Shown one piece after another: positions 6,643 to 30,296 of a DNA stretch of 33,400 bases (positions within the stretch are counted from its first letter, which is position 1; each line of letters opens with the position of its first letter). A program made the position numbers and the translations under genes. Location: assembly GCA_026702755.1 (NCBI GenBank), contig JAPPBX010000062.1:1-33400 (forward strand), read 5' to 3'. This stretch comes from Candidatus Poribacteria bacterium. Its GTDB lineage: Bacteria > Poribacteria > WGA-4E > WGA-3G. A model generated the notes under the pieces. The model had not been told where the DNA came from. It ran no database searches and worked only from the letters and a program-made list of their open reading frames with translations.

Positions 6643-7563
6643 ATGGATTGGCAAGACGCACTGTCGGACATCATAATACATCCCAACTCACGACTCCGGT
6701 TTAAGGAACCCCTCGCAAAACACACCTATTTCGGTATCGGCGGTGAAGCGACCGCCTACATTGAAGTCAGTACCATAGATGAACTATCAGCATTGGCACA
6801 TTTTCACCGGCAGTGGGACGTTCCGATTGCGATTATTGGACGCGGATCAAATCTACTCGTGAGCGATACCGGCTTCAAAGGCATCAGTGTTCGGTTAATC
6901 GGTGAGTTAGCGAAATCGGAAGTTGATGGGAATACTGTTTCAGTCGGTGCGGGGCTTTCACTGCCGCGTCTTTCAAAAACGATGTCGCGACAGGGCTTGA
7001 GCGGTGTGGAATTCGCGCTCGGTATCCCCGGCTCCGTCGGCGGTGCTTTGATTATGAACGCTGGCGCATGGGGAAGCAGTTTCGGAGATGTCGTCACAAA
7101 CGTCACAGTTATGGACGACACCGGTGAACTCGTCAATTTGACCCACGCCGAGGCAGCGTTTGAATACCGACACAGCGGTTTGGACGCGTATTTCTGTGTT
7201 ACCGGTGCAACGCTCGAACTTGAACCCGGAGATGCTGACGCAATCACGGAGCAGATGCAGGCGTTCTATAAGCAGAAAGTGGAAACACAACCCTTCGCTG
7301 AAGAAAACGCTGGGTGTATGTTCAAAAACCCACCCGGCGATTCCGCGGGACGTTTAATCGACATCAGCGGGTTGAAAGGCTACCGCATCGGTGGTGCGGA
7401 GGTCTCCACGGTGCACGGAAATTTTATTCTCAATATCGACAATGCAACAGCAACAGATGTGTTGGACTTAGTCGCGCATATCCAACAACAGGTACGCGAA
7501 AAGACCGGCATCTCGCTCCAGACAGAGGTCAAACGACTGGGGTTTGACGCTAAGGTCGAATAA
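6643..7563 (+). CDS. murB: UDP-N-acetylenolpyruvoylglucosamine reductase
   Basis: 306 aa, the length of the short (type II) MurB class. It reduces the enolpyruvyl group of UDP-GlcNAc-enolpyruvate to UDP-MurNAc with NADPH and FAD, a cytoplasmic step in peptidoglycan synthesis. FAD-binding signatures are IIGRGSNLLVSD and IPGSVGGALIMNAGAWG. The substrate region includes YRHSGL (Arg) and the C-terminal GGAEVSTVHGNFILN. The proton-donor loop reads NAGCMFKNP with Cys225 where the classical E. coli enzyme has Ser; some type II enzymes are known to carry Cys there. GAGGAAAGG before the ATG is a good RBS. Its last 14 nt overlap the convergent gene's end. A cell-wall gene here suggests a true peptidoglycan pathway. 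Confidence 0.95.
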   Translation: MDWQDALSDIIIHPNSRLRFKEPLAKHTYFGIGGEATAYIEVSTIDELSALAHFHRQWDVPIAIIGRGSNLLVSDTGFKGISVRLIGELAKSEVDGNTVSVGAGLSLPRLSKTMSRQGLSGVEFALGIPGSVGGALIMNAGAWGSSFGDVVTNVTVMDDTGELVNLTHAEAAFEYRHSGLDAYFCVTGATLELEPGDADAITEQMQAFYKQKVETQPFAEENAGCMFKNPPGDSAGRLIDISGLKGYRIGGAEVSTVHGNFILNIDNATATDVLDLVAHIQQQVREKTGISLQTEVKRLGFDAKVE

Positions 7564-8743
7564 CCGTTCCATCCATCCGACGCACGGGTGCCCAACTGCC
7601 GTTGAGTGGGTCTTCCGGGAATGGGAATCGTGCGGCGAGTTCCTCGTTTAAATCAATACCGAGTCCCGGTGCCTCATTTACCCAAAAACAACCATCTCGA
7701 ATTTCAGGACACCCCGGAAAGACCTCTTTGGTATTCTCACCGAAGACGTGCTGCTCCTGAATACCGAAGTTATAGCACGCCAAATCCAATGCGACATTGG
7801 CGGCATGCCCGACCGGAGAAACATCACCTGGGCCGTGCCATGCGGTTCGTACGCCGAAAAATTCACAGAACGCAGCGAGTTTACGTGCCGGACTGATACC
7901 ACCTATCTGTGAGATATGCACCCGGATGAAATCAATAAGCCGATCCTTGATAAGGTGAACGTATTCATTCGGATTATTGAACAATTCACCCATTGCAATC
8001 GGGATACTCGTCTGCTGACGCATCAGTTGAAAATAGTCAACATCCTCTGGAGCAAACGGGTCTTCAAGGAAAAAGAGGTTATACGGCTCCAATCCTTTCG
8101 CAAGATTAATTGCTTGGATAGGTGGGATCCGTTCATGCACATCGTGGAGGAGTTCCACCTCGTCGCCGAGGTGTGTCCGCAAATGATCGAAGAGTTTAAT
8201 GATGGTATTGACATAAGGGGTCGGTTCAAAGGCAGGCGAACTCCGCTTTCCTCCGCCTGCACCGTAAGTTGAATAGCCGGGTATTGCCACCTGCGCCCGG
8301 ACATAGCGATAGCCTTGTTCCGTATAACGCCGGATGCTCTCTTCTACCTCTTCAAAAGTGCCGCCCCCTGCATGCGCATAAAGCGTTGCAGCCTCACGAC
8401 ATTTACCACCGAGCAGTTGATAAACAGGCATGTTAGCACGCTTGCCCATGATGTCCCACAAGGCGATGTCCACACCGCTGAGAGCGTTGTTCAGCACCGG
8501 TCCATTTCGCCAATAGGAACTGACAAAACTGGTCTGGAAGATGTCCTCTATGTTCGTCGGATCTTTCCCGATGAGAAAGGGTTTGAGATACTCATCGACT
8601 GCTGTCGCCACGGCAAGTGGACGCTGTGTAAACGTCGCACAACCGATGCCGTATAAGCCGGGTTCACTCGTTTCAATTTTAACAACGACGAGCCGGGTGC
8701 CATTCGGTGCTGTCAGAATCGTTTTTACATCTGTAATCTTCAT
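7550..8743 (-). CDS. ManD/RspA-type enolase-superfamily sugar-acid dehydratase
   Basis: 397 aa. It belongs to the mandelate racemase/muconate lactonizing subgroup, closest by motif to D-mannonate dehydratase (ManD) and RspA: N-terminal MKITDVKTILTAPNG, capping-domain RNGPV, barrel LHDVHERIPP, FFLEDPFAPEDVDYF, PIAMGELFNNP and WHGPGDVSPVGHAANVALD. The Asp/Glu/Glu magnesium ligands sit in the barrel motifs (LHDVH, LEDPF, GELF), and the His of WHGP is the expected catalytic base. The family dehydrates mannonate or gluconate to 2-keto-3-deoxy acids, but many members are poorly active, so the exact substrate is open. AAAGGAAA precedes the ATG. It converges on murB with a 14-nt overlap. It is likely part of the sugar-acid catabolic group downstream of the dehydrogenases. 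Confidence 0.85.
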   Translation of the reverse strand: MKITDVKTILTAPNGTRLVVVKIETSEPGLYGIGCATFTQRPLAVATAVDEYLKPFLIGKDPTNIEDIFQTSFVSSYWRNGPVLNNALSGVDIALWDIMGKRANMPVYQLLGGKCREAATLYAHAGGGTFEEVEESIRRYTEQGYRYVRAQVAIPGYSTYGAGGGKRSSPAFEPTPYVNTIIKLFDHLRTHLGDEVELLHDVHERIPPIQAINLAKGLEPYNLFFLEDPFAPEDVDYFQLMRQQTSIPIAMGELFNNPNEYVHLIKDRLIDFIRVHISQIGGISPARKLAAFCEFFGVRTAWHGPGDVSPVGHAANVALDLACYNFGIQEQHVFGENTKEVFPGCPEIRDGCFWVNEAPGLGIDLNEELAARFPFPEDPLNGSWAPVRRMDGTVIRP

Positions 8744-27014: not shown

Positions 27015-27431
27015 TTAATCTCGCTTTATGCCAACGACCACATTCTCAGAAGACACATCCTCCGGGATGACGACAAAAATCTTTCCAGATTCACAGTTTT
27101 CGCTCTGTTTTTTCAGATATTCCGATATTTCACTGGCATCAAGGAGAACCGCACCATCGGCAGCAGCGTCTGGTGTAGGTCCAAGTGGGGTACCAAACTT
27201 TCGCACCCATTTGAAGACGGTACTCGGTGAGACCGAGAACATTCGAGCGATTGTGCTTATAGAAATCCCGCGGCAGTATAGGAAAACCGCTAAAGCTCTC
27301 TGCCACGGCGGTCTCCCACGAGAGGTAAGTCGCGTAAACTGAAAGCCACAAGCTTTACACTTATAGCGTTGGCTGCCTCTGGCTTTCCCATTTTTGACAG
27401 CATCTTCCCGTTTGCAACGCGGACAGTTCAT
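27015..27431 (-). CDS. IS1-like zinc-ribbon/HTH transposase, truncated
   Basis: About 139 aa from the ATG at 27431, with GGAGG about 9 nt upstream; a longer ORF starts at 27479. The N-terminus is a zinc ribbon (CPRCKREDAVKNGK, GSQRYKCKACGFQF) and residues about 50-85 form a helix-turn-helix (ISISTIARMFSVSPSTVFKW), as in IS1-type InsA. The following VLLDASEISEYLKKQ resembles the beginning of the DDE domain of InsB, but the protein ends soon after, and the remaining DDE acidic residues are missing. It is either a broken IS1-family transposase or a domesticated DNA-binding derivative. It has its own promoter-like sequence. No flanking inverted repeats were recognised. Confidence 0.6.
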   Translation of the reverse strand: MNCPRCKREDAVKNGKARGSQRYKCKACGFQFTRLTSRGRPPWQRALAVFLYCRGISISTIARMFSVSPSTVFKWVRKFGTPLGPTPDAAADGAVLLDASEISEYLKKQSENCESGKIFVVIPEDVSSENVVVGIKRD

Positions 27432-27469
27432 CACGAAGTACCTCCCCTTACAAAATGTGATTAACAAAA

Positions 27470-27498
27470 AGTATACCATAAAAATTATTACGATGCAA
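27470..27498 (-). promoter_or_regulatory. promoter for the IS1-like gene
   Basis: On the minus strand TTGCAT (27493-27498), a 17-nt spacer and TATACT (27470-27475), 38 bp before the ATG at 27431. Confidence 0.5.
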
Positions 27499-27766: not shown

Positions 27767-28786
27767 ATGGCAGGGAAACTGAAAGTTGCAGCAGTTGGGT
27801 GCGGTGGCATTGGCCGCCTTCATCAACTGGGTTATCTTCAGCATCCGGGTGCGGAATTGGTAGCAGTGTGCGACATAGATACCGCTAAAGCAGAGGCACG
27901 TGCTAAAGAACTCGGCGTCGCGAATTGGTACCCCTCCATCCAAGAGATGCTCGCGCATGAAGAGTGCGACCTTGTAGACGTTGTAACTGCTGACTATCTG
28001 CGCTTTGAACCCGTAATGGAATGTCTGGAGGCAGGCAAACACGTTATCTCCGAAAAACCTCTGTCCCTCTATATCAACGAAGCAGAAGAAATGGTCGCGA
28101 AGGCTGAAGAAAAGGGTGTACACCTCGCTATTGATTACAACCGCCGGTTCGCACCGGGGTATGTCCAAGCGCGGAAATGGTTCGACGCGGGGATTATCGG
28201 GCAAACTTATTACTTAGATATGAAATTATCTCAAGGGGGACCCGCCTCAACATGGAAGGGAGAATATTACCTTCTCTACGAACTCGAAACCCATGCGATC
28301 GACTTGCTTCGATGGTTCGGCGGTGAGATTGTTGCTGTCTGCGCGCAAATGGCGAAACCACGGGAAAATGAGGTACGCGAAGGTGAAGACGCATGTTATA
28401 CCAGCATGGCCATCTCCTGCCGCTACGAAACGGAAGTCGTTGCTACGTTGATGGCGAGTTGGGATAGTGACTTCATCCATCCAATTGAACGTCTTGAAAT
28501 CTGCGGCTCTGATGGCGAAATCGTCGTTGATAATGTCCTGACACGCGCAACCTTGATGAGACGGGACAATCAGGTCGTTGAAGAATACCGTCCCTCTATT
28601 TTTAGAGCCGAACAACTTGCATTTGATGGAACATTTGCCTTACGGATGGCTGCGCTTGTCGATGACTTACTCGCCGACCGCTCCCCCGCCCCAACAGGGA
28701 AAGACGGTTTGCAAGCGTTACGAATTACCGAAGCCATTGTAGAATCATGGAAAGAAAAACGGGAAGTTGAGGTTAAAATCGACTAA
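27767..28786 (+). CDS. Gfo/Idh/MocA-family oxidoreductase
   Basis: 339 aa, ATG with AAAGGAG upstream. Rossmann motif VAAVGCGGIGRLHQLGYLQH, adenine-ribose Asp in VAVCDIDTAKA, catalytic Lys in HVISEKPLSLY, and a C-terminal domain with AIDYNRRFAPGYVQARKWFD and ETHAIDLLRWFGGE. NAD(P)-dependent sugar or polyol oxidoreductase of unknown substrate. It is not closely related to the copy at 19803, so the two are probably different enzymes. The IS200/IS605-like element begins only a few bases after its stop, so it may have lost a downstream neighbour. Confidence 0.92.
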   Translation: MAGKLKVAAVGCGGIGRLHQLGYLQHPGAELVAVCDIDTAKAEARAKELGVANWYPSIQEMLAHEECDLVDVVTADYLRFEPVMECLEAGKHVISEKPLSLYINEAEEMVAKAEEKGVHLAIDYNRRFAPGYVQARKWFDAGIIGQTYYLDMKLSQGGPASTWKGEYYLLYELETHAIDLLRWFGGEIVAVCAQMAKPRENEVREGEDACYTSMAISCRYETEVVATLMASWDSDFIHPIERLEICGSDGEIVVDNVLTRATLMRRDNQVVEEYRPSIFRAEQLAFDGTFALRMAALVDDLLADRSPAPTGKDGLQALRITEAIVESWKEKREVEVKID

Positions 28787-28801
28787 CAATGCGTGATACC
28801 A

Positions 28802-28916
28802 CCCACACGCTAAAGCGTGGGGCTTCGGCTTCGTAGCGACTGCGGTTTTCTCAAAGAGTCCACCGTCTTATTTTCGCTCCACCAGCAGGCAATTCCCTGA
28901 AACTCTGAAACGAGTC
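28802..28916 (-). repeat. right end (RE) hairpin and candidate omega-RNA region
   Basis: CACGC-TAAA-GCGTG with outer CCC/GGG lies 95 bp beyond the tnpB stop. In known TnpB systems the guide-carrying RNA is transcribed over the 3' end of tnpB and the RE, with the guide just outside the element; here that would begin inside or next to the 3' end of the Gfo/Idh gene. The RNA itself is inferred from family knowledge. Confidence 0.55.
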
Positions 28917-30044
28917 TCAGGCATATCGTGCGGAAACTTTCACGGGTATCCCTGCCTGCAATATGTTTATCGCAGCGTTGATGTCTCGGTCATGGTGTGA
29001 ACCACATTCGGGGCATGTCCACTGCCTATCAGAGAGAGAAAGATTTTCGTTTCTATGTCCACAATCGGCACACGGCTTTGTTGTCGCCGTCCACTGTCCG
29101 ATTTGAACAAACTGACGCTTATGTTTTTGACACTTATATCGCAATATCTCAACAAACTGGTAGAACGCAAGATCGGAGACTTTCCGTCCCCAGAGGCGTT
29201 TCATGCCGTCAAGGTTCAAGGTTTCAAGAATGATGGTATCAAACTTCTCGCAAAGTTTGCTTGCCAATTGCCAATGAAAGTCTTTGCGTTGGTTGGCAAC
29301 TTTGCGATAGAGTCGTGCGAGGTCACGGACGCTCTGCCACCAGCCGTTAGAACCTTTAACCTTTCGGGAAAGACTTTTGTTGAGAGACCGAAGTTTCTTC
29401 AAGGACTGTTTCAACGGTTGTGGGTGTTGTATCTTTTCACCCGTGCTAAGCGTCAAATATGCGTCTTTCATACCGAAGTCTGCCCCAACACTCTGACCCG
29501 TCGTTGGCAGCGGTTTTGTTTCTACAAAATCGGTTATCAGATAAAGCCAATAGTCGCCGCAAGCGTCGCGCTTTATCGTGATACGACTGATATTCCCATG
29601 AAACTCACGGTGCTTATGGAACGCATACGCCACTTTATCATGTCGCCATTTCCCTTTCTCCCATTTTCTGAAGTTGAGGGTGAGGCGATTGTCTTTCAGA
29701 GACCAACCTGCTTGTTTGAGCGTCAAGGATTTGAACCTATGGCGTTTTTTGATCTTCGGCCTGCCACCAAGTTTCTTGAAAAAACGCTCATACGCAAGGT
29801 GTATCCGTTTCAATTCTTCTTGCATAGCTTGACTCGGCAATGCTTTCCAATGTGGATGCGTCGTGCGTTTCAAATCAGTCAAATGTTCACACATCGCAGC
29901 GTGGTTCGCATACGGCAAACCATCTTTATAGCGTTGACGGTGCCACTCATGGAAATACTTATGCACCTGCCACATATCATCAAGCAGATTACCAAGTCGT
30001 ATCAAATTAGATTGATTTCCGAACTTATACTTATACGTTTTCAT
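28917..30044 (-). CDS. tnpB: TnpB, RNA-guided endonuclease of IS200/IS605
   Basis: 375 aa, intact. The RuvC-like nuclease residues are all present: Asp189 in SVGADFGMKDAYL, Glu274 in IILETLNLDGM, and Asp354 in HDRDINAAINI. The zinc ribbon has Cys325/Cys328 (CADCG) and Cys344/Cys347 (CPECG). The N-terminal half is basic (KLGGRPKIKKRHRFKSLTLK), as expected for RNA binding. TnpB proteins cut DNA next to a short TAM, guided by an RNA from the element's right end, and promote element retention. The ATG lacks a close Shine-Dalgarno; AAAGG lies about 20 nt upstream within a structured leader. A consensus promoter is upstream at 30143-30172. No TnpA is nearby. Confidence 0.95.
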   Translation of the reverse strand: MKTYKYKFGNQSNLIRLGNLLDDMWQVHKYFHEWHRQRYKDGLPYANHAAMCEHLTDLKRTTHPHWKALPSQAMQEELKRIHLAYERFFKKLGGRPKIKKRHRFKSLTLKQAGWSLKDNRLTLNFRKWEKGKWRHDKVAYAFHKHREFHGNISRITIKRDACGDYWLYLITDFVETKPLPTTGQSVGADFGMKDAYLTLSTGEKIQHPQPLKQSLKKLRSLNKSLSRKVKGSNGWWQSVRDLARLYRKVANQRKDFHWQLASKLCEKFDTIILETLNLDGMKRLWGRKVSDLAFYQFVEILRYKCQKHKRQFVQIGQWTATTKPCADCGHRNENLSLSDRQWTCPECGSHHDRDINAAINILQAGIPVKVSARYA

Positions 30045-30055
30045 GGTATATCACA

Positions 30056-30136
30056 TATCACACCTTTATCCCCTGCTAAGTGGGACGGCAGACACATTGT
30101 CAAGCGACAATGCTTAGCATGTCTGCCAGTGTGATA
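30056..30136 (-). ncRNA. structured, potentially pseudoknotted tnpB leader RNA
   Basis: Four perfect inverted repeats fill an 81-nt region. A: TATCACAC (30056-30063) with GTGTGATA (30129-30136). B: TGCTAAG (30074-30080) with CTTAGCA (30113-30119). C: GGCAGACA (30087-30094) with TGTCTGCC (30120-30127). D: CATTGTC (30095-30101) with GACAATG (30106-30112), loop AAGC. C and D are directly stacked, and B's right half lies as a 7-nt bulge between D and C, so B crosses C. The predicted transcription start is at one end of A. The only SD-like word (AAAGG) adjoins stem A next to the start codon. Confidence 0.6.
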
Positions 30137-30142
30137 GTATTA

Positions 30143-30172
30143 ATTATACCGCAATTTGACTACAATTGTCAA
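30143..30172 (-). promoter_or_regulatory. consensus sigma70 promoter for tnpB
   Basis: On the minus strand TTGACA (30167-30172), an 18-nt spacer and TATAAT (30143-30148), both perfect consensus. The expected start point is near 30136, the first base of the structured leader. Confidence 0.8.
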
Positions 30173-30197
30173 GTTTATTTTTCAACAATATCCTACG

Positions 30198-30238
30198 CCG
30201 TCTTACATCCCCAAGCTAAAGCAGGGGGCTTTAGACGG
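30198..30238 (-). repeat. left end (LE) hairpin of the IS200/IS605-type element
   Basis: CCGTCT (30198-30203) with AGACGG (30233-30238), and within it CCCC (30209-30212) with GGGG (30224-30227) and GCT/AGC. Its core CCCC...GCTTTAGC...GGGG matches the RE hairpin. From 30239 to 30296 only the RBS region of the next gene was seen. Confidence 0.65.
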
Positions 30239-30296
30239 AAGACAGGTAAACCGTTTCTTACGCAAATCGTTTCTACTTGCAAGGAGGAATGACATC

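Follow-up and report, generated by a model that had tools for sequence, protein, structure and literature searches.

A 33,400-nt stretch of DNA from a Candidatus Poribacteria bacterium (contig 62, JAPPBX010000062.1, of a 5.84-Mb genome; hereafter, the window) carries on its minus strand a tnpB gene that is preceded by a promoter and a cluster of nested inverted repeats. In a preliminary description made from the letters alone, these repeats were read as a pseudoknot or a switch between two folds that could control TnpB translation, and the feature was taken to start at 30044, which is the tnpB start codon. The locus raises the question of whether this leader is a real RNA structure and, if so, what it does for the gene behind it. 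By comparison of homologous leaders, the leader is almost certainly a real, selected RNA structure, and its 5′-terminal strand, A5, very probably has two selected partners. We propose, with a probability of about 60%, that it is a bistable leader which opens and closes the tnpB start.

Results

Promoter and architecture of the tnpB leader

On the minus strand, TTGACA (30172-30167) and TATAAT (30148-30143) form the promoter TTGACA-N18-TATAAT (30143-30172), with the 12 of 12 matches and 18-nt spacing of the perfect promoter described previously. The transcript from this promoter is predicted to start at or beside the first base of A5. The leader was indeed found to begin at the predicted transcript start, as had been suggested, since the distance from the −10 motif to A5 was kept: the motif ended 5 nt before A5 in 86 of 99 copies. 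Of the 99, 59 had TTGACA and 53 had TATAAT. An antisense-promoter check on the plus strand gave only a 9/12 promoter-like site, which is about chance level, and a strong antisense promoter was not found in the window.

Repeat search and alignment located all four perfect inverted repeats of the preliminary description (A, B, C, and D) on the minus strand, with B and C crossing as described. The 5′-terminal strand A5 (TATCACAC, the first 8 nt; 30129-30136) is followed by C5 (GGCAGACA; 30120-30127), which pairs with C3 (TGTCTGCC; 30087-30094). Enclosed by C are B5 (TGCTAAG; 30113-30119), hypervariable and bulged between C and D as a kissing strand, and the D hairpin CATTGTC-GCTT-GACAATG (30095-30112; arms 30112-30106 and 30101-30095). 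Alignment of homologous leaders added the E hairpin, TCCC/GGGA (30069-30085; 30085-30082 with 30072-30069), whose loop holds B3 (CTTAGCA; 30074-30080, from the repeat search), the partner of B5 (30119-30113). Downstream lie A′ (GTGTGATA; 30056-30063), the first 3′ partner of A5, and A″ (TGTGATA; 30049-30055), the second. Helix E and A″, a second copy of the 3′ A arm, had been missed earlier. Helix E makes B a kissing contact, from the C/D bulge to the E loop, on a three-way junction. The proposed pseudoknot was supported, and so was a switch between two folds, with the evidence pointing to A′ versus A″ and not to B versus C; almost every copy keeps B as well as C paired, and as a kissing contact the two are compatible.

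As had been noted, the leader matched no known counterpart. At the gathering threshold, no Rfam family was matched in 8 loci, and in the window there was no relevant Rfam match at E up to 1, with only a below-threshold microRNA match elsewhere. A transcription attenuator was considered and rejected, as no terminator hairpin with a T-run was found in the leader.

Covariation of the leader helices

The same genome gave 18 DNA matches and 22 tnpB-like matches. As observed in the alignment, the paralogue leaders had different bases in A, B, C, and D with the pairs kept, and helix E recurred around the 3′ half of B as AACCT/AGGTT, AACCG/CGGTT, and TCTC/GAGA. In an alignment of 8 leaders (A2), 98.1% of the base-pair cells were paired and 20 of 34 pairs had changed on both sides. 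A covariance model built from A2 (R1) recognized 15 leaders in this genome and, across the phylum, about 650 (per-genome counts summed) in 48 of 85 genomes, almost all from the same family. A larger alignment (A3; 100 leaders, 99 distinct) was fitted to R1 and is hence biased towards A, C, D, and E; B is not part of the model.

In A3, 97.5% of 3,332 base-pair cells were paired and 29 of 34 pairs had changed on both sides, with a covariation score of 0.506, compared to 0.025-0.071 for slid partners (0/500 shuffles). Among the 99 distinct leaders, helix B was paired in 96.2% of cells, though it lies outside the model, and helix E in 98.1%, with changes on both sides; A5:A′ was paired in 95.7% of the A3 cells. 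Compensatory change in homologous tnpB leaders, proposed earlier as a check, was therefore extensive, with hundreds of recurrences, far beyond chance. Beyond a U and a UAAA linker, conserved unpaired bases were few. Furthermore, G-U pairs exceeded A-C mismatches (133 versus 24), indicating that the folded strand is the tnpB-sense transcript and not its complement.

A second partner of A5 at the tnpB start

The complement of A5 was doubled in tandem in nearly every leader, with a 7-nt period in the common type, to which the window's leader belongs (type I). In A3, A5:A″ was paired in 92.6% of cells, with a covariation score of 0.324 against at most 0.086 for slid partners. Therefore, two mutually exclusive helices, A5:A′ and A5:A″, were both supported by covariation, A″ being the one that covers the initiation region. 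The distance from the end of A″ to the ATG is fixed in type I, with 4 nt between them in the window. Only 2 of 93 type I leaders had a Shine-Dalgarno-like word no more than 18 nt from the ATG; in poribacterial contigs, the corresponding figures were 46% for long open reading frames (ORFs) and 21% for random positions. The Shine-Dalgarno-like word that had been placed just before the ATG did not hold up, as AAAGG lies ~20 nt upstream, which is too far for a normal Shine-Dalgarno sequence.

Leaders of the same five-helix design and different sequence (type II) were found with a different TnpB branch. In these, A″ (ACCATGTA or ACGATGTA) includes the tnpB start codon, the A′ copy lies upstream, and the Shine-Dalgarno sequence AAGGA is situated between A′ and A″. 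Across 18 distinct type II leaders, 95.0% of the main-fold cells were paired, as were 95.7% of the A5:A″ cells. CAU of A5 always stood opposite the AUG (columns 87-89), and a neighboring pair alternated between C-G and G-C jointly in A5, A′, and A″ (GGT/ACC/ACC and CGT/ACG/ACG). The spacing of A′ and A″ is 7 nt in type I and about 16 nt in type II. The start-codon-containing A″ of type II is the strongest hint that A″ may serve in hiding and exposing the site of initiation.

Variability of the leader

Helix B was the most variable helix and almost always complementary, having 55 sequences among the 100 leaders, whereas C had 20 and the variable core of A had 12. The probability that two leaders within a genome differ was 0.98 for B, 0.90-0.92 for D, 0.85-0.88 for A, and 0.63-0.71 for C. 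In one pair of elements (L178 and L223), tnpB was 98% identical, and leader helices B and D each differed at 5 of 7 positions; near-identical tnpB genes with different B and D would fit leader swapping between copies. Hypermutation was the first reading of the fast change in B; this pair fits recombinational leader replacement at least as well. An insertion of ~25 nt (CCCCTTCCCAGTAACGGGTGGGGACCCC type) was seen in the D loop of L206, L234, L239, L253, and other matches of 119-127 nt.

Distribution of the leader

A tnpB frame lay downstream of 96 of the 100 leaders, and the leader was attached to TnpBs of about 30-40% identity. Among the matches listed, nearly all named genomes with the leader were Candidatus Poribacteria. 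In the GTDB pattern search, the non-Poribacteria among the matches listed were a sponge-derived “Gammaproteobacteria” metagenome-assembled genome (MAG) contig (L284) and a Pseudomonas contig, the latter matched by the pattern and not recognized by R1. The search pattern favors the commonest C helix, and so the absence of the leader outside Poribacteria is not proved. L284 carried a full leader before a very different, distant TnpB (6900-7994), which suggests transfer or mis-binning. In IMG/VR, two stretches of one viral contig had the leader. By eye and by folding, no such leader was seen at seven tnpB genes from other phyla and phages (two cyanobacteria, Geoalkalibacter, Rhodothermus, Megamonas, a gut phage, and a Thermus phage).

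The L284 leader adjoins genes that by eye resemble a DNA phosphorothioation (Dnd) system. In Thermus phage T72 (L382, 460-600), a large near-perfect hairpin of unrelated layout stands directly upstream of the TnpB gene. In the window's genome, the genes of another tnpB branch (L027, L037, and L039) are preceded by a short conserved leader of another kind (TTTGTGCCCTGTCAGGGCAG type), which has an ordinary Shine-Dalgarno-like word.

Non-coding relatives with the same leader

The preliminary description had held that the same sequence in many places away from tnpB would refute its proposal. The leader does occur at sites without tnpB, but its hosts there are non-coding members of the same IS family that share the ends and have an omegaRNA-like end. 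The objection therefore holds only in part, and these elements make functions other than TnpB translation control conceivable. Two of these (L002 and L009) and some 30 further ones in other genomes are ~500 nt long and share the ends and promoter; the non-coding elements (L107-L123, L136-L154, L002, and L009, around 1350-1630) come from roughly 20 Poribacteria genomes. Each holds a diverged leader copy, a conserved middle domain that does not code for protein, and, on the 3′ side, a region resembling the tnpB end that would act as omegaRNA. The tnpB start ATACCATG is replaced by ATACCACT or similar, with no start codon or ORF. In 33 distinct non-coding sequences, C, B, and E were paired in 100% of cells, all above every shuffle. 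These ~500-nt elements might provide TnpB with guide RNA in trans.

The tnpB element and its insertion site

The leader is inside a tnpB-only element of the IS200/IS605 type (28793-30245, minus strand, 1,453 bp; left end 30245, right end 28793) and begins 109 nt from the left end. The limits were set by comparing the occupied locus with empty sites in many relatives. Empty sites read ..GGTTTAC/GCATTG.. and the occupied site ..GGTTTAC/CTGTCTTCC....GTATCAC/GCATTG.. (slashes mark the junctions), indicating insertion 3′ of TTTAC with no duplication of the target. The TTTAC kept 5′ of the left end (30246-30250, minus strand), identical in the empty sites, is the presumed target-adjacent motif. Related subterminal hairpins are present on one strand at both ends; the left-end one (30204-30238, minus strand) was read directly and is kept in copies, and the other lies at about 28799-28826.

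The tnpB gene (28917-30044, minus strand) encodes 375 amino acids with OrfB_IS605 and Cas12f1-like TNB (zinc-finger) domains (Pfam, 78 bits each, above cut-off), and its motifs GADFG, LETLNL, and DRDINA are intact by eye. It is the sole long gene-like ORF on the coding strand of 28793-30245, tnpA being absent from the element. By its domains, insertion mode, subterminal hairpins, and lack of tnpA, the element is a tnpB-only (IS1341-type) member of IS200/IS605. In this genome, an element with tnpA before tnpB (L025, C87:106998-108645) shares the left end and promoter but lacks a structured leader; an ordinary Shine-Dalgarno sequence precedes its tnpA.

The right-end region of TnpB elements functions as omegaRNA (PMC10278001). 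The presumed omegaRNA, or right-end element RNA (reRNA), region with the right-end hairpin spans 28793-28970 on the minus strand, its 5′ limit being likewise presumed, and the last ~113 nt of the element match the non-coding elements at 81%. The flank beyond the right end (GCATTGTTAGTCGATT; 28777-28792, minus strand), the presumed guide, is the sequence beside TTTAC in the empty sites, that is, 3′ of TTTAC in the uninterrupted locus of relatives. The presumed guide would thus match the element's own empty site, as expected for a TnpB guide.

Solitary left-end-type hairpins of ~40 nt were also observed with no tnpB seen alongside (L013, L014, and L015), two of them at contig ends. Near the element, a fragment at 27015-27479 of the window has zinc-ribbon InsA-like and HTH_23 domains and is part of an IS transposase by these domains.

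Discussion

The alignments showed the structure itself, the covariation of both A5 partners, the fixed place of A″ at the start codon, and the lack of a Shine-Dalgarno sequence in type I. From these, we propose the following model. A5 would close a three-way junction of hairpin C/D and hairpin E that is held by the kissing helix B. When A5 pairs with A′, the junction would be closed and the segment adjoining the start codon would be free (on), whereas pairing of A5 with A″ would lock the initiation region in a helix (off). In type I, A″ takes the Shine-Dalgarno position; in type II, it holds the AUG, with the Shine-Dalgarno sequence between A′ and A″. Exchange between the two pairings in the cell could limit the amount of TnpB nuclease made. 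The model is also favored by the lack of such a leader in the element with tnpA before tnpB and by similar closure energies: by nearest-neighbor calculation, closure by A′ and by A″ differed by a mean of 1.8 kcal/mol (standard deviation 3.4) and was within 3 kcal/mol in 59 of 100 leaders. That control of translation initiation is the main output in tnpB elements appears probable to us to the same degree as the bistable leader itself.

Several points weigh against this model. Many leader copies are related, and their base-pair cells are not independent events. The energy comparison excludes the pseudoknot and depends on the alignment; the calculated energies are compatible with two states and prove nothing on kinetics. 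In type I, A′ and A″ are both inside the ribosome footprint, and the A′-paired state may hinder initiation too. Moreover, in the 33 non-coding sequences, A5:A′ and A5:A″ were paired in 96.1% and 93.3% of cells, above every shuffle. The five helices and both partners of A5 are kept there without an ORF, indicating that the structure is selected even without one, and for these elements translation control is no explanation. There, A″ can form a further, weak pairing with a CACTN strand downstream (77.9% paired; GAGTG/CACTC, ATAG/CTAT, and ACAAG/CTTGT are examples). Either the leader does something more that is independent of translation, or the non-coding RNAs work in trans, or what the switch controls is wider than translation.

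In another explanation, the paired and knotted 5′ end would shield the transcript from 5′ end-dependent decay, or it would control how the long precursor that ends in the omegaRNA and guide is transcribed or processed, alike in tnpB mRNAs and non-coding elements. This agrees with a structure whose first base coincides in nearly all copies with the predicted transcript start, which is conserved in architecture and not in sequence, and which is fully kept in elements ending in the same omegaRNA-like region. However, it leaves unexplained the fixed A″ at the start codon, the missing Shine-Dalgarno sequence of type I, and the AUG-containing A″ with its adjoining Shine-Dalgarno sequence in type II, and we consider it possible but doubtful. 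The leader could instead be a constitutive brake, a stable structure that keeps TnpB low, also from read-through transcripts, with no switching and with A″ as a spare. Both A5 partners lie within usual ribosome reach, and few unpaired bases beyond the U and the UAAA linker are conserved, which speaks for this view. Three-way covariation in types of different spacing is hard to reconcile with a mere spare, however, and we consider a plain brake decidedly unlikely.

Riboswitches and ribozymes are often laid out as a three-way junction with a loop-bulge contact, and the leader could on this ground be a sensor with its three-way junction and kissing helix as the core, namely a riboswitch, a ribozyme, or a binding site for a protein such as TnpB itself. 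With very few conserved unpaired bases, variation in all of A, B, C, and D, no Rfam match, and attachment to TnpBs of about 30-40% identity, this seems unlikely. HDV (hepatitis delta virus)-like and hammerhead ribozymes were considered for their strand order and three-way junction and rejected; their cores were lacking by eye, and Rfam gave no match. IS200/IS605 elements move as hairpin-bearing single-stranded DNA, and a DNA-level role as operator, transposition end, or single-stranded structure had been kept open in the preliminary description. The element's left end, however, is 109 nt off and has its own hairpin, the tnpA-before-tnpB element lacks the leader, and the G-U excess and start-codon registration point to the transcript; we judge such a role very improbable.

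Start-region switches with competing strands are found in hok/sok-type mRNAs and in translational riboswitches. There, as proposed for the bistable leader, one strand has two partners, one being the initiation region. In the leader, the partners are tandem copies, 7 nt apart in type I, and no ligand or antisense RNA was identified. HEARO is likewise a structured RNA upstream of an IS605-type nuclease gene. HEARO-type guide RNA was ruled out by position: the HEARO/IscB omegaRNA draws its guide from beyond the left end (PMC9755519), whereas the leader RNA starts 109 nt inside the element. The TnpB omegaRNA/reRNA (PMC10278001, PMC11061315) is a structured RNA of the same transcript and element, but it is at the 3′ end and carries the guide, whereas the leader is at the 5′ end, has no guide, and shows no similarity by eye. 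An omegaRNA identity was therefore rejected, as the leader lies 5′ of tnpB with no guide position, and no omegaRNA-like layout was recognized in it by eye.

The IS200 tnpA mRNA leader, as summarized in later papers, has secondary structure and is subject to the art200 antisense RNA and Hfq (Ellis et al. 2015, cited in PMC10134880 and PMC5391140). By analogy, the tnpB leader appears close to it in purpose: both are structured 5′ leaders in the same IS superfamily, and the IS200 leader, in these accounts, limits translation of the element's gene. The gene is tnpA there, controlled by mRNA secondary structure and an antisense RNA, and tnpB here, with a five-helix kissing pseudoknot and a duplicated 3′ partner. 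The non-coding relatives resemble palindrome-associated transposable elements and non-autonomous IS200/IS605 derivatives in having ends without an ORF but, to the extent that these are described in PMC7290912 and PMC3119063, differ in their promoter, leader, conserved middle domain, and omegaRNA-like end. No description of non-coding elements with this combination was found. A structured tnpB leader was also not described in the searchable literature, which is weak evidence because most subscription journals lay outside the search.

TnpB is regarded as the ancestor of Cas12, and it cuts chromosomes. How elements restrain it is an open question. As far as could be found, no conserved RNA structure had been reported before at the 5′ end of tnpB mRNAs, and this one has strong comparative support and occurs in hundreds of copies. 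It is conceivable, though less likely than not, that the leader belongs to a new class of bistable RNA carried by mobile elements, with a transcript 5′ end that alternates between two tandem copies of its complement. Such a module would gate the translation of TnpB where the element codes for it and, in guide-RNA-only elements, would gate their output; the RNAs of the latter could arm TnpB produced from other loci of the genome. The non-coding relatives prompt the question of whether this module also controls a supply of guide RNAs in trans.
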